Positions 6,271 to 23,920 of a stretch of DNA of 24,084 nucleotides are shown here, in pieces. Source of the stretch: a virus; IMG/VR virus record IMGVR_UViG_3300032288_005818, positions 1-24,084 of that record; one strand, given 5' to 3'. The translations under genes were made by a program, and so were the position numbers. Each line of letters opens with the position of its first letter. Within the stretch, counting starts at the first letter, position 1. The notes below the pieces were generated by a model. The model was given only the letters and a program-made list of their open reading frames with translations. It did no database searches and was not told where the DNA came from.

Positions 6271-7809
6271 ATGTTCTTAACCTGGTTAATGTTAGCAGTG
6301 GCGCTGAGTCTTAGTACCATCGCTGCTTTTTATAGTATCATTGGTCTTACAGCCATTTTTGCTTCCGCTGTGGTTCCTGTGGCCGTCATGGGATCCATCC
6401 TAGAGATCGCCAAGCTAGTGGTCACAGTGTGGTTACATGAATACTGGGATCGTTGCCGCCGGCTGATGAAGGTCTATCTCGTCCCTGCTGTAGGCGTGCT
6501 CATGCTGATTACCAGCATGGGCATCTTTGGATTCCTTTCAAAGGCCCACCTTGACCAAACCGTGATCTCAGGAGATAGCATCACTCGTATCTCTATCTAC
6601 GATGAAAAGATAAAACAATCTCGGGAAAACATAGATACCAATCGCCGCGCACTGAAACAGATGGATGAGGCTGTGGACCAACAGATGTCTAGATCCACAG
6701 ACGAGCAAGGTGCCCAGCGCGCCGCTAACCTGCGCCGTAATCAGCAAGGTGAACGCACTCGTTTACAGAAAGAGATAGAAACAGAGCAGCGCAAGATCCA
6801 AAGCCTTAGCGAAGAGCGTGCGCCTATAGCCGCTGAGGTGCGCAAAGTCGAAGCCGAGGTAGGTCCTATCAAATACATCGCGGCCTTGATCTATGGCGAC
6901 AACCCCGATGCCAATCTCTTGGAAAAGGCCGTGCGCTGGGTCATCATAATACTGGTAGTGGTGTTTGACCCCCTAGCCATATTCATGTTGCTGGCCGCCA
7001 CAGAAAGTTACAAGTGGGAAAAGTACGGACGAGAAGGCAATCTCAAAGAACGCGATGCCCCTCCACCGCAACAGCCGGTCAAGGACGCTGTGGCAAAGAC
7101 CAGGTCCTGGGCTGAAATTTGGATTGAGAAAATCAAAGGATCACGAAATGCAATTGTACCTAATGATGCAAGTGTTACCAAGGATTTGGATGGACACCCT
7201 GCAGGAGATAGTGTGGACAGCCAACCCGTGGTTACGGTGGTGGAACAATCTAAAACCATCCCCCCGGAACAATGGGGAGGACAAGATTTAACCATTGACC
7301 TGTCTAACAAAACACCAGACCCTCTGGTATCTAGTAGTCCTGTTTATGTCAACATGCCGGATATCGTGTCATCTCATAGCGACGATGAGTACGCAAGTGA
7401 CGATATGACCAAGGCTGCCCAGCGTCGATGGAAGGTTGAAAATCCTGACAAAACTCTCAAAGAACAACGACATCTGTTGGAAATTGGACAGATAGATCAT
7501 CTGCCTTGGGAAGATTATCTCCGGGCCGATCGCAGGGTCAGCGAATCTGGATTCGGCTCCCAGTTCCCCGACGATCCCGAAAAGGGACAGATCTGGATCA
7601 GAACAGATCATCTGCCTACCACACTCCATAAATTCAACGGAGAAAAATGGATTGAAGTGATCAAAGATCAATCCGACTCTTATGCTTTCAATGAAGAATA
7701 CATCAATCATCTCATAGCCAAGATTGGTTCTGGTGAATATGATCCAGAATTACTTACGGATGCTGAGAGATTACAGATTGAATCTCGTTTGCGCACGGAC
7801 TTGACATGA
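6271..7809 (+). CDS. Phage membrane/coiled-coil protein (512 aa)
   Basis: This large integral membrane protein is of a type common and unnamed in aquatic T4-like phages. Three N-terminal membrane helices (about 3-25, 27-52, 67-90) carry the family's FYSIIGLTAIFASAVVPVAV-like start (here 20-39) and ITSMGIFGFLSKAH (80-93). A long coiled coil follows (about 105-200), then a fourth helix (about 223-245, VRWVIIILVVVFDPLAIFML). A polar linker and a soluble C-terminal domain (about 370-512) contain a KGQIWIRTDHLP-type motif near 435-446. The ATG has no clear ribosome site. It overlaps clpX by 4 nt. A role in membrane remodelling or lysis is possible but not shown. Confidence 0.85.
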   Translation: MFLTWLMLAVALSLSTIAAFYSIIGLTAIFASAVVPVAVMGSILEIAKLVVTVWLHEYWDRCRRLMKVYLVPAVGVLMLITSMGIFGFLSKAHLDQTVISGDSITRISIYDEKIKQSRENIDTNRRALKQMDEAVDQQMSRSTDEQGAQRAANLRRNQQGERTRLQKEIETEQRKIQSLSEERAPIAAEVRKVEAEVGPIKYIAALIYGDNPDANLLEKAVRWVIIILVVVFDPLAIFMLLAATESYKWEKYGREGNLKERDAPPPQQPVKDAVAKTRSWAEIWIEKIKGSRNAIVPNDASVTKDLDGHPAGDSVDSQPVVTVVEQSKTIPPEQWGGQDLTIDLSNKTPDPLVSSSPVYVNMPDIVSSHSDDEYASDDMTKAAQRRWKVENPDKTLKEQRHLLEIGQIDHLPWEDYLRADRRVSESGFGSQFPDDPEKGQIWIRTDHLPTTLHKFNGEKWIEVIKDQSDSYAFNEEYINHLIAKIGSGEYDPELLTDAERLQIESRLRTDLT

Positions 7810-9005
7810 CCGACAGCACAGGATTGCAGACCTGTAGTTTCTGCGGGAAACATAAAGATTCTGTGGCCAAACTCATAGTCAGTGACGAGGTTGCCATTTG
7901 CAACGAGTGTGTAATCTTGTGCCAAGAATTATTGGTAGATGCTCCAATCAAGATACCATCTAATGACATCAATGATCCTAGGAAACTCAAACAATATCTC
8001 GACCAATACTGCATAGGACAAGACCAGGCTAAGATCATGCTCAGCGTGGCCATTATCAATCATTATAAACGAATCAAGAATCAAGATCCTGATCACGAAA
8101 TCGCCAAAGCAAACATACTCATGATCGGCCCCACTGGGTCCGGTAAAACACTGCTGGCCAGGACAGTGGCGCGATATCTAGATGTGCCTTTTGCCATAGC
8201 CGATGCCACTAGCATCACTGAAGCAGGGTATGTTGGCGACGATGTCGAAAGTTTGATTTCCAGACTGTATGCCAATTCTGGGCATGATATCCAACGCACC
8301 CAGCAGGGCATTATCTTCGTAGACGAGATTGACAAGATAGCCAGGAAGAGTGAATCGGTGTCCATAACAAGAGATGTGTCTGGTGAAGGCGTGCAACAGG
8401 CCTTGTTGAAAATGGTAGAAGGTACCCGTTGCCGCATACCCGCGGGCGGTGGCCGCAAACATCCAGCCGGGGAAATGATAGAAATAGACACCACCAATAT
8501 ACTGTTTATTGCCGGAGGTGCTTTTGTTGGCCTCGACAAGATCATAGGCAATCGAATCAATGGATCCAGCATAGGTTTCAACTCCCCGGTCCGAGATCAA
8601 CAAGCCATCAACTTGGACCAAGTTGATCCTGATGATTTGGTGAGATTTGGTATGATTCCAGAGTTTGTGGGCCGGTTTCCTGGTGTAGTAAATCTCCAAC
8701 CCTTGGAACGGCCGGACTTGGTACGAATCCTTACTGAAGTAAAAAACAACTACATCGATCAATATCAGTGGTTGTTCCGGCAAGATGAGGTTGAATTGAC
8801 TTTTGCACAATCCGCACTGGATGCCATAGTGGATCGTGCCCACAGCAGTGGCACAGGTGCCCGGGCACTTCACAGCGAGATTGAGCGTGCTCTAATGCCG
8901 CACATGTTTAATCTAAGAGCATATCACGAGGCGGGTATAAACTGCGTAGATATTGATGCAGGCTTGGTAAATAATCCCAAGCCCTTGAAGGAGGTCGCAG
9001 TTTGA
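7806..9005 (+). CDS. clpX: ClpX, AAA+ unfoldase of ClpXP
   Basis: A full-length 399-residue ClpX (E. coli 424). The N-terminal zinc-binding domain has C10-x2-C13 and C32-x2-C35. The AAA+ module has Walker A GPTGSGKT (108-115), pore-1 loop GYVG (141-144), Walker B IIFVDEID (169-176), the RKH loop (217-219), sensor 1 near 230-240, arginine finger R290 in EFVGRFP and sensor 2 GARAL (351-355). The ClpP-docking IGF tripeptide is present at 256-258, so it should dock ClpP from phage or host. It unfolds tagged substrates and feeds them to ClpP in the cytoplasm. It overlaps the upstream membrane gene (ATGA) and the downstream rpsU start. Phage-borne complete ClpX is uncommon; no key residue is lost. 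Confidence 0.97.
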   Translation: MTDSTGLQTCSFCGKHKDSVAKLIVSDEVAICNECVILCQELLVDAPIKIPSNDINDPRKLKQYLDQYCIGQDQAKIMLSVAIINHYKRIKNQDPDHEIAKANILMIGPTGSGKTLLARTVARYLDVPFAIADATSITEAGYVGDDVESLISRLYANSGHDIQRTQQGIIFVDEIDKIARKSESVSITRDVSGEGVQQALLKMVEGTRCRIPAGGGRKHPAGEMIEIDTTNILFIAGGAFVGLDKIIGNRINGSSIGFNSPVRDQQAINLDQVDPDDLVRFGMIPEFVGRFPGVVNLQPLERPDLVRILTEVKNNYIDQYQWLFRQDEVELTFAQSALDAIVDRAHSSGTGARALHSEIERALMPHMFNLRAYHEAGINCVDIDAGLVNNPKPLKEVAV

Positions 9006-9223
9006 AATTCACAGGAAAATCGGTAATCGTGCAAGATGGCAATGTAGAAAAAGCCATGCGCAAGTTCAAAAAGAAAATCCAAAATTCTGGACTATTGTTG
9101 GAACTGCGCGAACGGGAGACCTATGTCAAACCCACCACCCGCCGCAAACTCAAACGCGGGCAAGCCAAAAGCCGCTGGAAAAAGTATCTCCGCGGCCAGC
9201 AGATGCCTCCCCGTCTTTATTGA
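9002..9223 (+). CDS. rpsU: Ribosomal protein bS21 (phage-encoded)
   Basis: This 73-residue basic protein matches bS21 throughout: V-x-V-x-x-GNVEKAMRKFKKK, then SGLLLELRERETYVKPTTRR and a Lys/Arg-rich tail. bS21 sits near the anti-Shine-Dalgarno end of 16S rRNA in the 30S subunit; known phage copies are thought to enter host ribosomes and favour phage mRNA. The start is TTG at 9002, not ATG, chosen because AAGGAGG (8988-8994) lies 7 nt upstream and the residues after it fit the family N terminus. It overlaps the clpX stop by 4 nt. Its own stop codon is inside the -35 box of the hsp20 promoter. Confidence 0.94.
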   Translation: MKFTGKSVIVQDGNVEKAMRKFKKKIQNSGLLLELRERETYVKPTTRRKLKRGQAKSRWKKYLRGQQMPPRLY

Positions 9224-9248
9224 CAGAATCCGGAAAATCCTGTATAAA
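9220..9248 (+). promoter_or_regulatory. Strong sigma70-type promoter of hsp20
   Basis: Consensus TTGACA (9220-9225), a 17-bp spacer and TATAAA (9243-9248). The spacer contains CCGGAAAATC ending 3 bp before the -10; the clpP promoter at 23278-23305 has the same 10-mer at the same place. TATAAATA (9243-9250) also matches the T4 late promoter core, so late transcription is an alternative reading. Confidence 0.88.
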
Positions 9249-9255
9249 TATATTT

Positions 9256-9310
9256 GTAGCGCCGATGGTCGGGCTACGCTATAGTCAACTTGCTTAATTC
9301 AAAGGAGAAG
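9256..9310 (+). promoter_or_regulatory. hsp20 leader: hairpin plus ROSE-like sequestration of the ribosome site
   Basis: The leader can form a 9-bp hairpin (9256-9265 with 9269-9277, one bulged G). It is followed by TTGCTT (9290-9295), which can pair with AAGGAG (9302-9307) through U-A, U-A, C-G, a G-G mismatch, U-A and U-G. A UUGCU strand with a G-G mismatch over the ribosome site is the signature of ROSE thermometers found before small heat-shock genes. The helix is short and not extended further, so this is tentative. Confidence 0.35.
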
Positions 9311-9315
9311 ACATC

Positions 9316-9756
9316 ATGACTAAAATCACATCGTTTGACCTCACCCCTTTCTACCGCTCCACGGTAGGTATCGACAGCCTGTTCGATCGCATCACACGCA
9401 ACATCGACATGGCTGCCAACGCAGGCAATTACCCTCCCTACAACATCGTCAAGACCGGCGATGAGACCTATGAGATCCAGATCGCGGCAGCAGGTTTCCG
9501 CCAAGACGAGATCGAAGTAGAAGTCAAGGATGGCCAACTTGTGGTACAAGGTGGACAAGGCAACCAAGCACGCCCAGAAGTAGAGTATCTACATCACGGT
9601 ATTTCAAACCGTAGTTTCATCCGTACCTTCCAACTCAGCGATTATGTCGAGGTCAAGGAAGCCCAGATGAAAGATGGTATCTTGACCGTGAGGTTAGAGC
9701 GTGAAATTCCTGAGGCTGCCAAGCCCAAGAAGATTGCCATCTCGTATCAAGCATGA
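9316..9756 (+). CDS. hsp20: Small heat-shock protein, Hsp20/IbpA family
   Basis: This 146-residue holdase chaperone binds unfolding proteins and keeps them refoldable. The alpha-crystallin domain (about 38-135) shows YNIVKTGDETYEIQIAAAGF, the DEIEVEVKDGQLVV strand pair, HHGISNRSFIRTFQL (about 93-107) and KDGILTVRLEREIPE (about 118-132), all typical of IbpA-like proteins of aquatic T4-like phages. The N terminus (SFDLTPFYRSTVGID) matches the FD-x-x-P-x-x-R-x-x-VGFD pattern of the family. It has its own strong promoter and a hairpin downstream, and lies between rpsU and clpS. Confidence 0.95.
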   Translation: MTKITSFDLTPFYRSTVGIDSLFDRITRNIDMAANAGNYPPYNIVKTGDETYEIQIAAAGFRQDEIEVEVKDGQLVVQGGQGNQARPEVEYLHHGISNRSFIRTFQLSDYVEVKEAQMKDGILTVRLEREIPEAAKPKKIAISYQA

Positions 9757-9768
9757 TGATGTAAATAT

Positions 9769-9792
9769 GGGTGAGAGAATCCTCTCTCACCC
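9769..9792 (+). terminator. Strong hairpin between hsp20 and clpS
   Basis: A perfect 10-bp stem (GGGTGAGAGA at 9769-9778, TCTCTCACCC at 9783-9792) with loop ATCC. No T-tract follows (AAACGG), so it is more likely an mRNA 3'-stabilising or processing hairpin than a full terminator; clpS may still be read through from hsp20. Confidence 0.6.
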
Positions 9793-9813
9793 AAACGGTA
9801 ACAAGGAATCCAC

Positions 9814-10125
9814 ATGTCGCAGGTCGAAATAAAAACAAAAACACGGACAAAAACTAATTTGGATGTCAAAGAACCTCCCATGTTTCGGATTATCTACATC
9901 AATGATGATCAGACTCCCATGGAGTTCGTGGTCAGCACTCTGATCGAACATTTTGATTACACCATAGACAGTGCCCAGGATATAACAATAGCCATCCACG
10001 AGACCGGATCTGCTGTGGTGGCTGTGCTGCCATATGAGTTAGCCGAGCAAAAAGGCGTAGAGATCACTGTGTCTGCCCGGTCTGAAGGTTACCCTTTGCA
10101 GATCAAACTGGAGCCGCAGACATGA
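9814..10125 (+). CDS. clpS: ClpS, N-degron adaptor
   Basis: A 103-residue ClpS. This adaptor binds proteins with N-terminal Leu, Phe, Tyr or Trp and hands them to ClpA or ClpC for degradation. The hallmark N30-D31-D32 (in YINDDQTPMEF), gate Met36 and His62 (AIHETG) are all present and correspond to E. coli N34, D35-D36, M40 and H66. The C-terminal AEQKGVEITVSARSEGYPL also fits. The N-terminal extension (1-22), needed for delivery, is Lys/Thr-rich. AAGGAA precedes the ATG by 7 nt. No ClpA is seen in the window, only ClpX, so its partner is either host ClpA or, less expectedly, phage ClpX. Confidence 0.95.
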   Translation: MSQVEIKTKTRTKTNLDVKEPPMFRIIYINDDQTPMEFVVSTLIEHFDYTIDSAQDITIAIHETGSAVVAVLPYELAEQKGVEITVSARSEGYPLQIKLEPQT

Positions 10126-15594: not shown

Positions 15595-16145
15595 GGATAA
15601 ACTGGGTCTTTGCCGCTGACTATCAGATAGATCCAACAGTCGATATCTCGCAGATCAAAAACATAGGTGCCACCTGGGGTAGTTGGAGATCATGGAGATC
15701 CTGCCAAACTGACAATGTTATCTGTGATGATCTTCCTAAGGGCAAGGAACTATTAAAACGAGCCTTCCAGGCCGTGTGCAACTTCCATGTACCTCGTCGT
15801 TATTATCAAGACCTCGGTCGCCCAGTGGGCATTAAACTGTACGATGGACAATTCGCCGAACAAGTTGATGACATTGAAGACATCATCGCTCTGCACCTAG
15901 TACTGGGCATATCAGATATAGTGTTACTGGCTGGCTTTGATCTCCGCCAACCGGTCCCGACCAACGATCGATTTGAACAACATAAAATCCAAAATCGGTT
16001 AGGACTGATCCGCAGCGTGATCCAAAACAATCCCGAAGTACAGTGGGTATTGGTCGATCACCCCGGCGAATTGGACAAAGGTTTCCGAAACATAGCCAAT
16101 CTCACTTGCGATCAATTCCAAAATGTCATACAATTGTTGGTATGA
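15591..16145 (+). CDS. Conserved aquatic-phage hypothetical protein (184 aa)
   Basis: A 184-residue protein of a widespread unnamed family in marine phages, recognisable by MRINWVFA, NIGATWGSWRSWRSC (about 24-38), TDNVICDDL, RAFQAVCNFHVP (57-68) and the VDDIEDIIALHLV helix. The segment IIALHLVLGISDIVLLAGFDL (here split across 98-118) resembles the helix-strand of DUF115/sialyltransferase-like Rossmann proteins, a weak hint of sugar binding. GAGG lies before the ATG, which overlaps the tail-fibre-like stop by 4 nt. It overlaps uvsE by 4 nt. Confidence 0.8.
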   Translation: MRINWVFAADYQIDPTVDISQIKNIGATWGSWRSWRSCQTDNVICDDLPKGKELLKRAFQAVCNFHVPRRYYQDLGRPVGIKLYDGQFAEQVDDIEDIIALHLVLGISDIVLLAGFDLRQPVPTNDRFEQHKIQNRLGLIRSVIQNNPEVQWVLVDHPGELDKGFRNIANLTCDQFQNVIQLLV

Positions 16146-17167
16146 CTACACCCCGCGTTGGTTTCTGTTGCAAATGGATCGACCATCCAGACGAATGTGC
16201 TGGTCGCAAACCCACCAGTGAAAGCCGTGAGTTAAACGGCCGATCCACTACCATGCGTTGGTTGCGGGAGCACCCGGAACAAGCCGAACAACGACAATGG
16301 GATATCATGGATCACAACGCTCGTGCAGCCTTGCTCATGGTTGAGCGTGTGGGCAGTCTTCCTGAACATCTGCGCATGGTGCGCCTGGGTAGCGAAATGC
16401 TACAGGGCTATACCGAGCCCAACTGGATCGACTGGTGGCAGCAGGCAGATGTACAGCGTCATCTTGAACGGATATTTGCGCCTGTGGGCGAACGAGCAAG
16501 AGCACTGGAAGTGCGCCTGAGTTTCCATCCTGGACAGTTCTGTGTGCTGGCCTCAGCCGCTGATGAAATCGTGGAACGCAGCATCCTAGAGTTTGAATAT
16601 CATGCTGACATGGCACGCTGGATGGGCTATGGTAGCACATGGCATGATCATGGATTCAAGATCAATGTGCATCTGTCAGGCCGGGGTGGCCCAGCAAAAT
16701 TCCTGCAGACACTAAGTAAGCTGTCCCCCGAGGCTAGAAACCTCATAACTATAGAAAACGACGAGATATCAAATGGTTTGGATGTTACTCTTGCTGTGGC
16801 TGATCACGTGGCTCTTGTGTTGGACATTCATCACCACTGGATCAACACCGGCGAATATATTAGACCCCAGGACGATCGTGCGAAGCGGGTTATTGAGTCT
16901 TGGCGTGGTGTGCGTCCTGCTCTCCATTTTAGTGTTAGCCGCGAAGATATTCTTGTGGATCATCCTACCGGAGATCGTCCAGATCTTGCAGACTTACTTG
17001 GACGCGGCCATCGTAAACAGCACCTACGGGCACACTCGGACTTCTATTGGAACACCGCTGTAAACGACTGGGCCGCTGGATTCAGCAATGATTGGGATAT
17101 ACAATGTGAAAGCAAAGGCAAAAATCTAGCATCATTTGCATTCGCAGAGGCCCATGTCATCAGTTGA
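16142..17167 (+). CDS. uvsE: UV damage endonuclease UvdE/UvsE
   Basis: A 341-residue TIM-barrel endonuclease that nicks DNA 5' to UV photoproducts. Family motifs are clear: RVGFCCKW (5-12), RLSFHPGQF (125-133), TIENDE (203-208), LDIHHHW (227-233) with metal-binding His, HSDFYW (298-303) and the C-terminal ECESKGK-type motif (here CESKGKNLA, 322-330). The start at 16142 overlaps the previous stop and matches the family N terminus. It would repair phage DNA damaged by sunlight, a role played by DenV in T4. It overlaps the next gene by 14 nt. Confidence 0.92.
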   Translation: MTTPRVGFCCKWIDHPDECAGRKPTSESRELNGRSTTMRWLREHPEQAEQRQWDIMDHNARAALLMVERVGSLPEHLRMVRLGSEMLQGYTEPNWIDWWQQADVQRHLERIFAPVGERARALEVRLSFHPGQFCVLASAADEIVERSILEFEYHADMARWMGYGSTWHDHGFKINVHLSGRGGPAKFLQTLSKLSPEARNLITIENDEISNGLDVTLAVADHVALVLDIHHHWINTGEYIRPQDDRAKRVIESWRGVRPALHFSVSREDILVDHPTGDRPDLADLLGRGHRKQHLRAHSDFYWNTAVNDWAAGFSNDWDIQCESKGKNLASFAFAEAHVIS

Positions 17168-17936
17168 ATACCCTTTTCCAGTAGAAGTGCCCTACGCCAT
17201 GCGACCGCACATGCGGCCTTGGCAACCTGGTGAACCCATACTAACTAAAGATCAAGACTTTGATAGATATCAAGAACAAAAAATTTGGTCTTACGATCCA
17301 GTATACGGTGACTCAGCATCGCCAGATTTAGTGTATCACGCCGCAGAGGCTCTCGGGAAGTTTGATTTTTTAGCTCCAGTGATACAAGGTGATGCCCCGG
17401 TATGGCAACTATCTCGGGCCTTGCAGGAAGATTTTGTCATCTGGGCGCCAAATCGCTCTGGTCAACTATCAGCTCAGATCCTATCAGTTTGTTTGCCATC
17501 GGGTTGGAATCCCCGAGCCAAAGTCAACAAGACCTTTTTGGAAATACATGAACCCGTACCCGACTTTGATACAGTCAATCGTGCCGCCGATCACATGGCA
17601 AAGATGATCACAGAACGCGGACCTTACATCCGGCATGTATGGTCTATATGCAATCGACCTGGATTAAATCGCAGACCTGATCTCTGTAGACCTTGGTCCA
17701 ATGAGACTGTAGATGACATGTGGTTTAGGACTGAGCGCCAAGTCACTGTGCCAGTGGAAGGTACCATGGCCTTGTTCTTGATCAGAGTCTACATGCAACC
17801 CCTGCGAGATATCTTGCGTGATCCAGACAAAACTAAAACCTTGATAGACAGCATCATGTCCATGTCAGACGCTGTGATAGAATACAAAGATTTTGGTTAT
17901 CTAAAACTGTATTTTTCGAATCGACAGATCACTTAG
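17154..17936 (+). CDS. DUF3445 / heme-dependent oxidative N-demethylase-like protein
   Basis: A 260-residue protein matching DUF3445 (HODM alpha-subunit-like): FVIWAP, LPSGWNPRAKV (114-124), IHEPVPDFD (131-139), RHVWSICNRPGL (160-171) and the late TERQV-P beta strands. Characterised relatives bind heme and oxidatively demethylate N-methyl compounds. The ATG at 17154 was chosen because AGAGG precedes it; a TTG at 17136 is less likely. It lies in an overlap chain with uvsE, and its 3' end overlaps the antisense EF-hand gene by 8 nt. The substrate in a phage is unknown. Confidence 0.78.
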   Translation: MSSVEYPFPVEVPYAMRPHMRPWQPGEPILTKDQDFDRYQEQKIWSYDPVYGDSASPDLVYHAAEALGKFDFLAPVIQGDAPVWQLSRALQEDFVIWAPNRSGQLSAQILSVCLPSGWNPRAKVNKTFLEIHEPVPDFDTVNRAADHMAKMITERGPYIRHVWSICNRPGLNRRPDLCRPWSNETVDDMWFRTERQVTVPVEGTMALFLIRVYMQPLRDILRDPDKTKTLIDSIMSMSDAVIEYKDFGYLKLYFSNRQIT

Positions 17937-18120
17937 CGCGGGGCTTGCGGACCGCTTTGGCTTTGACTGCGGCTTTTTTAATCGCAACCCGTGCATTGGT
18001 TTTGACTTGGTTGGTTTTGGCCTTGACTCCTTCAACTGCTACTTTTGCGTCCTGGACATCAACCCGTCCATCGTTGTTGGCATCGGCCTTGGCGAACAAT
18101 TTTTTAAAGAATGCGAACAT
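17929..18120 (-). CDS. Single EF-hand mini-protein with basic tail (63 aa)
   Basis: A 63-residue protein: an amphipathic start (MFAFFKKLFAKA), one canonical EF-hand/dockerin-type calcium loop (DANNDGRVDVQD, 13-24; D13, N15, D17, D24) and a Lys/Ala-rich tail (KKAAVKAKAVRKPRAK) like histone H1. A single loop would need dimerisation for tight calcium binding. The tail suggests nucleic-acid or membrane contact. GGGAG precedes the ATG on this strand. It overlaps the DUF3445 gene by 8 nt at the 3' end. Confidence 0.75.
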   Translation of the reverse strand: MFAFFKKLFAKADANNDGRVDVQDAKVAVEGVKAKTNQVKTNARVAIKKAAVKAKAVRKPRAK

Positions 18121-18222
18121 GTGTCGGCTCCCATAATAAACATATATTTAGCCGGATACATCGGCATAAATCAAAATGATGTTGCGGTGCAAATAAATAT
18201 CCTTAATTAAACAGGAAACAAC

Positions 18223-18333
18223 ATGGCCAGCACTTGGTCCAAAATATCGACACGCAAGAAGATCAAATACGCTGTGATCGCGGTCTTATGGTTCGCAGGT
18301 TTGGGTCTGGCTATGTGGATCAATCTTCCATGA
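18223..18333 (+). CDS. Small single-pass membrane protein (36 aa)
   Basis: A 36-residue ORF, MASTWSKISTRKKIKYAVIA at the start, with a basic n-region then one hydrophobic helix (about 16-34, ending MWINLP). AGGAA lies 7 nt before the ATG. It overlaps the next gene by 4 nt (ATGA). It lies across a 102-bp divergent intergenic region from the EF-hand gene; I see A/T-rich but no convincing promoter there. Function unknown. Confidence 0.62.
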   Translation: MASTWSKISTRKKIKYAVIAVLWFAGLGLAMWINLP

Positions 18334-18524
18334 TACGAAGCATTGAGCGAATCTGGGCACGGGCCACAGGCCATGTCATGGGCGACACCGATGAAGACCG
18401 TCCCAGGGTGCCCATCCTCACGATACGAGAAGCAAGGATAGCACTTTGTCTCAAGACTTTCTGGATAGTGATCCATGTGATCACTTGCGGCTTCATAATA
18501 GCAAATGTGATAAGGCATTGGTAA
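18330..18524 (+). CDS. Conserved phage membrane protein (64 aa)
   Basis: A 64-residue protein of a small family common in T4-like aquatic phages. It carries a DEDRPRVPILTIREARIAL-like segment (here 21-39), then a hydrophobic membrane stretch LKTFWIVIHVITCGFIIANV (41-60) and a C-terminal RHW. One or two membrane passes. It is coupled to the upstream small membrane gene by ATGA and ends 1 nt before the aldolase gene. Function unknown. Confidence 0.82.
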   Translation: MIRSIERIWARATGHVMGDTDEDRPRVPILTIREARIALCLKTFWIVIHVITCGFIIANVIRHW

Positions 18525-18525
18525 A

Positions 18526-19179
18526 ATGTTAGAAACCATATGTGAAACACTGATAGAAGCCTACCGCAGAAACTGGATCACCAGCCGAGACGGCAATGTG
18601 AGCATCCGGCATCATGATCGAGATCATTTCTACATCACACCATCGGGTGTGAGGAAGCAGACTCTACAGCCCGACCAGTTCAAGAAGATTGGTATCCGCC
18701 GTAGTACCATGTTGGGTCATGACGCTGCTTGGACTGATCATGCCTGGGAGATCTTGGAATACACAGATATCAGCCACAAACTCCGGCCATCGGGAGAACT
18801 GCCTTTGCACTTTGGCCTACAGAAAGAACTTGGACAACACGCCAATGACGTTAGAGTGGTGGTACATCTGCACCCAACCTACTGTGTGGCCGCCATGCAT
18901 CGGGGCATAGAACTGGGCGAACTGGTGCGAGACTTTCCAGAACTCAGCAGATATACTCGAGTAGCACCCAATGTGGGTGATGTTCCTCCCATCAGCCAAG
19001 AACTGGCAGATCGGTGCCATGAGAATCTCGGACTTGATAGCCAGGGCCACATCCAGCATGACATAGTTGGCATCCGGGGCCATGGTGTGGTGGCCATTGA
19101 TACTAGCCCATGGCGTGCGTTTGAACACATAGAACGGCTTGAACACATCTGTAAGATAGTGTTGGCCTCAGGAGCGTAA
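18526..19179 (+). CDS. Class II aldolase/epimerase family protein
   Basis: A 217-residue zinc enzyme of the AraD/FucA/MtnB fold. Motifs: DGNVSIR (22-28), ITPSGVRK (37-44), RPSGELPLH (87-95), zinc ligands in HLHPTY (H114, H116), and IRGHGVVAI (183-191, H186), followed by the RAFEHIERLEHICKI helix. Glu91 stands where the catalytic or ligand Glu lies in the family. Members cleave or epimerise sugar phosphates or act as methylthioribulose dehydratase; the substrate cannot be told here. It sits between membrane proteins and a desaturase in the same direction. Confidence 0.88.
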   Translation: MLETICETLIEAYRRNWITSRDGNVSIRHHDRDHFYITPSGVRKQTLQPDQFKKIGIRRSTMLGHDAAWTDHAWEILEYTDISHKLRPSGELPLHFGLQKELGQHANDVRVVVHLHPTYCVAAMHRGIELGELVRDFPELSRYTRVAPNVGDVPPISQELADRCHENLGLDSQGHIQHDIVGIRGHGVVAIDTSPWRAFEHIERLEHICKIVLASGA

Positions 19180-19182
19180 AAC

Positions 19183-19890
19183 ATGATCGAATTTATCTTA
19201 GTATTGGTGATGACCCATATCACCATAGTATGCGTCACTGTATATCTGCATCGGCATCAAACCCATCTCGCACTGGAGTTGCATCCGTTGGTGAGTCATT
19301 TCATGCGGTTCTGGTTATGGCTCACTACAGGCATGGTCACGAAAGAGTGGGTGGCCATACACAGAAAACACCACCAGGCCTGTGAAACCGAAGCAGATCC
19401 ACATTCACCGCAGGTCTATGGTTTCTGGACCGTGCTCCTAGGTGGCGCATTCTTGTATGCAAAAGCCACCAATGATCGTGACATGATCGAACAGTACGGT
19501 CGTGGAACTCCAGATGATTGGATCGAACGAAATCTTTATACACCTTACAACAAGTGGGGATTCCTGCTGTTGCTGATCATTGAAGTGACCTTGTTCCATG
19601 GATGGGGACTAGTGATGTGGCTGGTACAAATGTCATGGATTCCTTTCTGGGCAGCCGGAGTGGTCAACGGAGTGGGCCACTGGTGGGGTTATCGCAATAC
19701 CAATACCCAAGACTCCAGCCGCAATATCTTCCCCTGGGGAATCATAATTGGCGGCGAAGAATTGCACAACAATCATCATGAACGGCCAGCATCGGCCAAA
19801 CTCAGCCATCGTTGGTGGGAGTTTGACATGGGGTGGATGTGGATCCGGGTCTTTGAAAGATTGGGCCTTGCCCGAGTCAAAAGAATTTAG
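19183..19890 (+). CDS. Fatty acid desaturase (delta-9 type)
   Basis: A 235-residue di-iron membrane desaturase. The three His boxes are HRHQTH (23-28), HRKHH (60-64) and the ELHNNHH segment (193-199), with an extra NGVGH (162-166). The hydrophobic segments lie where expected (about 3-22, 38-52, 126-162). It would introduce a double bond in host acyl lipids, altering membrane fluidity during infection. Similar genes occur in marine cyanophages and other aquatic phages. It is a short form compared with bacterial DesC-like enzymes (about 300). It overlaps the antisense gene at 19887 by 4 nt. Confidence 0.92.
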   Translation: MIEFILVLVMTHITIVCVTVYLHRHQTHLALELHPLVSHFMRFWLWLTTGMVTKEWVAIHRKHHQACETEADPHSPQVYGFWTVLLGGAFLYAKATNDRDMIEQYGRGTPDDWIERNLYTPYNKWGFLLLLIIEVTLFHGWGLVMWLVQMSWIPFWAAGVVNGVGHWWGYRNTNTQDSSRNIFPWGIIIGGEELHNNHHERPASAKLSHRWWEFDMGWMWIRVFERLGLARVKRI

Positions 19891-20367: not shown

Positions 20368-20402
20368 CAACTCAGTTAGATGCCGCATGGGGCGGGTCTA
20401 AG

Positions 20403-20675
20403 ATGAAGAAAGGTTCGCTTACTATGAAAAGGAAACCCAAAATGGACTTTACCAAAATCGATTTTTCTAAATTTGATGTAGCCAAGATGTTTGATGTTGA
20501 CGCTGCCATCGCCCAGATGGAAGAAGCCAATTCCAAAGCCATCGCATTGATCACTGACACCAAAGCCAAATCTATCGCCGAAACCGTTTCCTCGGCCAGT
20601 TTTGAGTTTGCTCGTGCCCAAGCCGCTGCCGCCAAGGCATTTGGCGAAGCAGTGAAAAAAGCCGTACAGATCTAA
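20403..20675 (+). CDS. Phasin-like small helical protein (up to 90 aa)
   Basis: A helical Ala-rich protein with DFTKIDFSKFDVAKMFDVDA (about 15-34), then a long amphipathic helix (AIAQMEEANSKAIALI) and ARAQAAAAKAFGEAVKKA, the pattern of small phasin-family proteins that coat polyhydroxyalkanoate granules or membranes. Three in-frame ATGs exist (20403, 20424, 20442). AAAAGGA before 20442 makes a 77-residue form starting MDFTKIDF the best-supported product; the longer start has no ribosome site. It has its own promoter, and a hairpin element follows. Confidence 0.65.
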   Translation: MKKGSLTMKRKPKMDFTKIDFSKFDVAKMFDVDAAIAQMEEANSKAIALITDTKAKSIAETVSSASFEFARAQAAAAKAFGEAVKKAVQI

Positions 20676-23347: not shown

Positions 23348-23920
23348 ATGACTACCGAAAAAGAACAAGTCTACGATAGCCCAAGCCAAGCCCTAAACGA
23401 TCACGGCATCTATGTGCTCATGGACGACATTGATCCCGAAAGCATCAAGCCCGTGATCGAGTGGATACTCCACGAAAACCATGTAAAAAAGAAAAAGCAC
23501 AAAGAACTCCTGCTCATGGTCTGCTCCAACGGGGGAAATATCTCCGAAGCATTTGCCCTGATTGATGTCATGCGCAGTAGCAAGATCCCAGTGAAAACCG
23601 TGGGCCTGGGTTGCATCGCTTCATGTGGATTGCTGATATTCTTGGCTGGTGCTCCTGGGCGGCGTGTGCTCACTCCCAACACTTCTGTGCTGAGCCATCA
23701 GTTCTCGTGGGATGTCGGGGGCAAGGCGCATGAACTGTTCGCCACTGTGAAAGAGTTTGATCTCACGCAAAAGCGGATGATCGAGCATTATCGGCGTAGC
23801 ACTGGCCTGGATGATGACACTATCCGACAGGTTCTGTTGCCTCCTCAGGATGTGTATCTTGATGCTGAAGAGGCCATGAAGTACAAAATCTGCGACGCCA
23901 TTGCTGATCTCGCAGCCTGA
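23348..23920 (+). CDS. clpP: ClpP-like serine peptidase
   Basis: A 190-residue ClpP, the proteolytic chamber that degrades substrates unfolded by ClpX or ClpA. The catalytic triad is intact: S92 (IASCG, for the usual ASMG), H117 (LSHQF) and D168 (PPQDVYLDAEEA). SNGGNISEAFALIDVMR (60-76) is the oxyanion/handle region. The N-terminus (1-19) is charged, without a long propeptide. The ATG has no good ribosome site. It has its own promoter, with a leader of about 35 nt, and the stop is 1 nt from the antisense gene's stop. It can partner with the phage ClpX, which keeps its IGF loop. Confidence 0.93.
   Translation: MTTEKEQVYDSPSQALNDHGIYVLMDDIDPESIKPVIEWILHENHVKKKKHKELLLMVCSNGGNISEAFALIDVMRSSKIPVKTVGLGCIASCGLLIFLAGAPGRRVLTPNTSVLSHQFSWDVGGKAHELFATVKEFDLTQKRMIEHYRRSTGLDDDTIRQVLLPPQDVYLDAEEAMKYKICDAIADLAA

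Follow-up and report, generated by a model that had tools for sequence, protein, structure and literature searches.

A phage ClpX–bS21–Hsp20–ClpS gene cluster with a ROSE-like leader on Hsp20 and a probable ClpA partner for ClpS

The virus record IMGVR_UViG_3300032288_005818 of IMG/VR, analysed here over its whole length of 24,084 bases (hereafter the window), is a fragment of a virus genome and carries on its plus strand a compact cluster of genes for ClpX, ribosomal protein bS21, Hsp20 and ClpS, with a structured RNA leader in front of hsp20. Genes were called from open reading frames (ORFs) together with profile matches to Pfam, NCBIfam and PHROG. The clpX gene (7806–9005), identified by TIGR00382 and motifs, encodes an AAA+ unfoldase with a zinc-binding domain and an IGF loop. 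It is followed by rpsU (9002–9223), which encodes bS21 (PF01165; TIGR00030 with 56.7 bits versus a cut-off of 28.95) from a TTG start overlapping the clpX stop, by hsp20 (9316–9756), encoding an IbpA-like small heat-shock protein (PF00011, 70.2 bits; phrog_432, 140 bits), and, after a further ~57 nt, by clpS (9814–10125), encoding an N-degron adaptor (PF02617). An earlier note on this DNA had named these four genes and a ClpP-like gene 13 kb downstream, and ORFs and profiles agree with it on all of them.

Searches of viral contigs for ClpS and ClpX yielded 159 loci, and the 95 distinct loci containing both genes were compared. ClpX, Hsp20 and ClpS followed one another in this order on one strand in 95/95, a clustering far beyond chance, and bS21 was recognised between ClpX and ClpS in 64 of the 95. 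The spacing was also tight across loci, with a median of −4 nt for the ClpX–bS21 overlap and a median gap of 59 nt between Hsp20 and ClpS. Profile-supported ORFs in a conserved order corroborate the earlier view of a real multi-gene phage Clp set. The PA5oct-like Pseudomonas phage phi30-2 (L622), a member of another jumbo-phage family, likewise has ClpS directly after Hsp20, and its Hsp20 leader contains a GTGCC..GGGC hairpin.

Upstream of hsp20, an exact match to the T4-type late promoter element TATAAATA (9243–9250, plus strand) stands 73 nt before the Hsp20 ATG. Of 111 distinct Hsp20 starts, 59 have such an element in the 120 nt before them, compared with at most 1 of ~95 for the other genes tested. 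Adjoining it is a structured leader (~9251–9326, plus strand), in which a bulged hairpin (~9255–9278), a GUCA box, a CUUGCU anti-Shine-Dalgarno (anti-SD) segment, the AGGAG Shine-Dalgarno (SD) sequence and AUGAC succeed one another. The Rfam family ROSE_3 aligned over its full length at 9253–9321 with 29.8 bits against a gathering score of 43 (E 0.014 for the window, 0.00012 for 201 bases), and full-length matches at the same place were obtained for Hsp20 leaders of relatives (35.8, 32.1 and 28.6 bits) and of the isolated phage Melnitz (34.1 bits). Of the 104 distinct leaders compared, AGGAG is faced by TTGCT or TCGCT in 98, and ATGA is accompanied by GTCA(T/A) in 90. A ROSE_3 match in Pseudomonas phage Y7 (69.2 bits) was not counted, the record being UNVERIFIED and probably host DNA.

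The ROSE-like structure was corroborated by covariation. A covariance model built from 29 leaders, with the window in the training set, gave the window leader 78.3 bits and matched 103 places in 94 sources, the training leaders among these, while 54 negative loci (0.6 Mb) contained no match at E values up to 1. Across 96 distinct matches, in an alignment fitted to the structure, 98.9% of cells pair compared with 87.6% in shuffled controls, and double changes occur in 13 of 18 pairs, amounting to 165 doubly changed cells versus 32.8 after shuffling; sliding the partners by 1–3 columns destroys this signal. In an unfitted MAFFT alignment the signal was weaker yet present (12 versus 2.6). Most of this support falls on the first hairpin, since there is little variation in the SD and start-codon helices. 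Folding with ViennaRNA, from which the G–G pair of ROSE was left out, predicted a sequestered SD, with a mean probability of being unpaired of 0.39 versus 0.63 for ClpS at 10 °C.

A pattern made of the anti-SD, SD and ATGAC boxes only, scanned over 2.9 million viral contigs, matched at least 120 stretches; 116 of the 120 listed lie immediately before an Hsp20 ORF; the remaining four showed no significant Hsp20 match, at least two of them lying before very short ORFs. Unplanned matches of the covariance model placed the leader before phage DnaK in 11 loci (L147, L124, L045, L046, L012, L047, L048, L108, L062, L069 and L044), one of these leader-bearing DnaKs being confirmed with Pfam, and before GroES, recognised from sequence only, in two large records, G004 and G008 (L637 and L639). 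The DnaK of relatives is full-sized, at ~625–640 residues, and in several it lies between bS21 and Hsp20. A small helical protein with no significant Pfam family also has the leader before it in several relatives. The leader occurs a second time in relatives, in several of them 2–3 kb upstream of ClpP2, the ClpP-type paralog described below; the window has a possible second, degenerate copy at 20372–20458 on the plus strand (14.6 bits with our model, E 0.12). The ORF behind it (20403–20675) encodes a small helical protein whose start is probably near 20442, as in the relative L645.

Among isolated phages, inspection by eye revealed a hairpin and a UUGCU/UCGCU box before the Hsp20 SD in Syn33, P-SSM4, S-SM1, S-CAM1, S-RIM2, S-B64 and S-CRM01, as well as in Melnitz, Atu_ph07 and Phosso, and no such combination before the Hsp20 SD of isolate SCTP-2. 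The covariance model matched Melnitz strongly and cyanophages weakly, and did not detect the leader in Phosso or Atu_ph07. The leader could be a ROSE-derived translation brake or an mRNA-stability element for late transcripts that answers a signal other than temperature, an explanation we consider possible if rather unlikely: the predicted opening with temperature is weak and small proteins without a significant Pfam family are also preceded by the leader, whereas the strongly supported targets besides the small protein are the heat-shock chaperones Hsp20, DnaK and GroES, and ROSE_3 itself is a thermoregulator family.

The window ClpS matched PF02617 with 77.8 bits versus a cut-off of 23 and ClpS structures in the Protein Data Bank (PDB) at E 1.6e-15, and scored below the NCBIfam ClpS equivalog cut-offs (78.7 versus 143). 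The earlier note had described it as an N-degron adaptor with the NDD, Met and His residues of the N-degron pocket, and all of these are present in the window. Among 112 distinct phage ClpS proteins compared in E. coli numbering, N34 and D35 were kept in all 112 and H66 in 110, and the gatekeeper M40 varied (M in 77/112). This conservation supports an N-degron-competent phage ClpS. E79, A81, Q83 and K84 were invariant in the same 112 proteins, and E79 and K84 are residues that we take, from the E. coli complex, to face the ClpA N-domain. With both the substrate pocket and the ClpA face kept, pairing of ClpS with ClpA fits better than pairing with ClpX.

The earlier note had reasoned that no ClpA is present and that ClpS must either redirect host ClpA or work with ClpX. 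Given that the window is only a fragment, the absence of clpA or of a second clpP inside its 24 kb is meaningless, and the premise is overturned by full-length ClpA in related phages. The Clp_N domain, on which ClpS docks, was found in 14 of 42 related records, including 10 of the 11 records of at least 200 kb and the closest relative, G001. Thirteen complete ClpA ORFs in relatives were 39–44% identical to E. coli ClpA over ~730–755 residues and contained an N-domain and two intact AAA modules with both Walker sites; they lacked a middle domain and had an IGF loop in place of the IGL of E. coli ClpA. Their best NCBIfam model was ClpA, below the equivalog cut-off (797.8 versus 993.15). The ClpA-bearing records of at least 200 kb had ClpS in 12/13 and ClpX in 11/13. 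By the earlier note's own terms a clpA elsewhere in the same genome, as the clear partner of ClpS, would refute its reading; such a gene exists in relatives including the closest one, and the window itself remains a fragment without clpA. Of 24 GenBank phage records with ClpS, at least 17 were among the ClpA matches listed, two of these bacterial-looking. Matches in 'Acinetobacter phage MD-2021a', with clpS beside clpA, were set aside as apparent bacterial contigs. Leucyl/phenylalanyl-tRNA transferase (PF03588) was absent from the 42 records, and a phage-encoded N-degron generator was rejected.

Adjacency might suggest another partner: through rewiring, ClpS might now hand its substrates to the phage ClpX encoded in the same operon, since clpX and clpS are neighbours in every one of the compared loci, unlike the clpS–clpA pairing of E. 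coli. We regard this as very improbable. The ClpA-facing residues are invariant, and a full-length protein search found no ClpX in five ClpS-bearing records, two of which, G013 and G016, carry ClpA; the retention of ClpS with ClpA where ClpX is absent argues against ClpX as its partner. That ClpX had been overlooked in these records for want of a zinc finger was considered and rejected, as the full-length search found none, and the weak ClpX matches in G013 fall in its ClpA and in another ORF. Moreover, Hsp20 and ClpS are also adjacent in the PA5oct-like phage, away from its ClpA, which indicates that adjacency is not partnership.

Delivery to the host is a further alternative. Transfer of substrates to host ClpAP has been proposed for jumbo-phage ClpS (PMC7824862), and the ClpA-facing residues of phage ClpS are shared with E. 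coli, so cross-binding to host ClpA is possible; the phage ClpA would then serve other substrates and the set would reprogramme host proteolysis. Against this, a ClpA complete with its N-domain is encoded by the phages themselves, and ClpS accompanies ClpA also in records from which ClpX is missing. We therefore judge the hijacking of host ClpA–ClpP unlikely, while reprogramming of host proteolysis by the phage Clp set as such is plausible.

ClpX scored 498.8 bits with TIGR00382 versus an equivalog cut-off of 370.75. Its zinc finger, Walker A and B motifs, GYVG pore loop, RKH loop and IGF loop are all present, as the earlier note had claimed for the ClpP-docking IGF loop, and the zinc finger, Walker motifs, pore loop and IGF loop are kept across 97 distinct phage ClpX proteins. 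The window ClpX falls in one phage clade (support 100/99). A recent host origin was rejected, as this clade is set apart from 69 bacterial sequences.

The ClpP-type gene 13 kb away (23348–23920, plus strand; PF00574, 100.5 bits), here named ClpP2, retains the intact triad reported in the earlier note: its Ser, His and Asp align with E. coli S97, H122 and D171, and the triad is present in 65/65 distinct relatives. In the same relatives, however, the docking cleft and the axial hairpin are lost, with the hairpin gapped, Y62 replaced by M, F82 by S and L114 by T, and R192 missing, whereas 58 canonical phage ClpP proteins keep the cleft and hairpin residues almost without exception. The chaperone-docking patch of E. 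coli ClpP includes Y74, Y76 and F96 in full numbering (PMC4416901), and the cleft positions replaced in ClpP2 include this documented patch. ClpP2 also scored below the NCBIfam ClpP cut-offs (68.5 bits versus 308.6; 87.6 versus 249), and its AlphaFold model is that of a ClpP subunit, with M. tuberculosis ClpP1P2 (4u0g) as the best match (TM 0.86). As judged from its residues, the window ClpP is a diverged paralog and not a canonical unfoldase-docking peptidase. Most related records contain two ClpP genes, and in 70 of 80 loci the canonical ClpP1 follows ClpP2 on the same strand at a distance of 25–3635 nt; in a relative whose ClpP2 is 96% identical, ClpP1 starts ~1.6 kb after ClpP2, that is, past the end of the window. 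By analogy with M. tuberculosis ClpP1P2, ClpP2 most likely forms a mixed or non-docking ring. It could instead be a head-maturation protease unrelated to Clp unfoldases, given that its best PHROG match is the head maturation protease phrog_94 and that its docking cleft is lost. We consider this role improbable: 9 of 16 related records have a T4 gp21-type prohead protease as a separate gene, and ClpP2 travels with canonical ClpP1.

Taking these observations together, our best explanation combines a Clp system of the phage's own, a late promoter and ROSE-like gating of Hsp20 in the proteostasis region of a large T4-like phage, and for this explanation as a whole we estimate a probability of about 0.68. 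The phage-encoded system would comprise ClpX, ClpS and ClpP2 in the window, with ClpP1 and ClpA outside the fragment. ClpS would most likely dock onto the N-domain of the ClpA encoded by the phage itself, handing over proteins with bulky hydrophobic N-termini, which would then be degraded in a chamber built on canonical ClpP1, while ClpX would run a parallel ClpXP1 route and ClpP2 would probably assemble into a non-docking or mixed ring. Hsp20 and ClpS would be transcribed late from the T4-type late promoter, and translation of Hsp20 would be gated by the ROSE-like leader, in which UUGCU is predicted to pair with the AGGAG SD, as is GUCA(U) with AUGAC; ribosomes would then load poorly until the hairpin loosens.

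Several observations weigh against this explanation. The 24 kb fragment contains no ClpA, and the ClpA and ClpP1 of this phage are inferred from relatives. The ROSE_3 scores of the window and its relatives all lie below the curated cut-off of 43, and Rfam at its gathering threshold gave no ROSE match in 20 relatives. The SD/anti-SD and GUCA/AUGAC helices hardly vary, and ViennaRNA predicted almost no temperature response, the mean probability of an unpaired SD being 0.39 at 10 °C and 0.44 at 42 °C. The DnaK leaders do not have the GUCA/AUGAC helix, and folding predicts them to be fairly open.

The relatives of the window are records of 300–350 kb with a T4 gp21-type prohead protease, which, together with the IMG/VR record itself, supports the phage origin assumed in the earlier note. 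The closest relative, G001 (136 kb), has a ClpX 90% identical to that of the window, with ClpX and ClpS at 89–90%. The window ClpP2 is 96% identical to that of G003 but 76% to that of G001, whereas ClpX and ClpS are closest to G001; this mismatch may reflect either a mosaic genome or an assembly join. The cluster is flanked by further tightly packed genes. Upstream, a predicted membrane protein of 512 residues (6271–7809, plus strand) is encoded by an ORF whose stop overlaps the clpX start, with a median gap of −4 nt between the upstream membrane-protein gene and ClpX in 90 loci. Downstream, a conserved phage protein (10122–10484, plus strand) overlaps the clpS stop and is in frame in 94 distinct relatives. 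Its predicted structure is confident (pLDDT 91), showed no significant match to the PDB and matched three predicted structures of uncultured phage proteins; weak structural similarity was seen to portions of phage proteins whose annotation is guanylate cyclase or transmembrane sensor domain. Farther along, positions 16136–19890 contain genes for a UvdE-type UV endonuclease, an HODM-like haem oxidative demethylase, a class II aldolase and a fatty acid desaturase.

The hsp20 gene is a core gene of cyanophages, and what it does there is under debate. A ROSE-like leader conserved in front of hsp20, dnaK and groES in many phages would tie phage chaperone output to temperature. We give an even chance to the broader proposal that T4-like and jumbo phages run a heat-shock regulon of their own, with ROSE-type thermometers on late Hsp20, DnaK and GroES transcripts; if true, chaperone supply during virion production would be temperature-gated in cultured cyanophages and uncultured giants alike. 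For proteolysis, a ClpA for ClpS to work with is available in the same group of phages, and the window ClpP is a non-canonical paralog, making the phage ClpA and ClpP1 the relevant proteins to study.

The Clp part of this arrangement is not new, because a comparable set, consisting of ClpX, ClpA, ClpB, ClpS and two Clp peptidases, has been reported for Agrobacterium phage Atu_ph07 (PMC6102473); the earlier note was only partly right in calling the full set with ClpS unusual. Like the window, Atu_ph07 has ClpX, Hsp20 and ClpS in this order on one strand, split by the record start, but unlike the compact cluster of the window's relatives its genes extend over ~6 kb and are interrupted by IF3 and thymidine kinase, ClpB is present and no bS21 is annotated between. 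Sinorhizobium phage Phosso resembles the window in having ClpX, bS21, Hsp20 and ClpS in the same order and strand, with a ClpP2-type gene and ClpA elsewhere in the genome, and differs in that its cluster is spread over 18 kb. A survey of genes within ten genes of bS21 in 900 phages counted Hsp20 127 times and Clp protease families 50 and 47 times (PMC9723584), in other phage clades, and the parts of it available to us make no mention of ClpS or of a conserved gene order. M. tuberculosis also has two ClpP paralogs with the ATPase-docking patch on one (PMC4416901), whereas phage ClpP2 has lost the axial hairpin too, and mixed rings in the phage are our inference from this likeness.

A literature search, mostly without subscription journals, found no ROSE element described in T4-like, cyano- or jumbo phages. 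The Clp set is an ordinary one for a phage, and a ROSE-like leader on phage chaperone genes is probably unreported. Very few RNA thermometers have been described from phages, the leader of lambda cIII being one. A fourU thermometer of SP-beta blyA was described in 2023, when only one earlier phage RNA thermometer was counted (PMC10586365). The lambda cIII and SP-beta blyA elements are likewise temperature-dependent phage leaders, and belong to other thermometer classes with other target genes. The phage leader shares with ROSE_3 (RF02523) its position before a small heat-shock protein gene, the bulged GCC..GGG hairpin, the pairing of U(U/C)GCU against AGGAG and the start codon at the 3′ end, and is distinguished from it by the T4-type late promoter, the extra GUCA(U)/AUGAC helix, scores below the cut-off, and its additional occurrence on phage DnaK and GroES.

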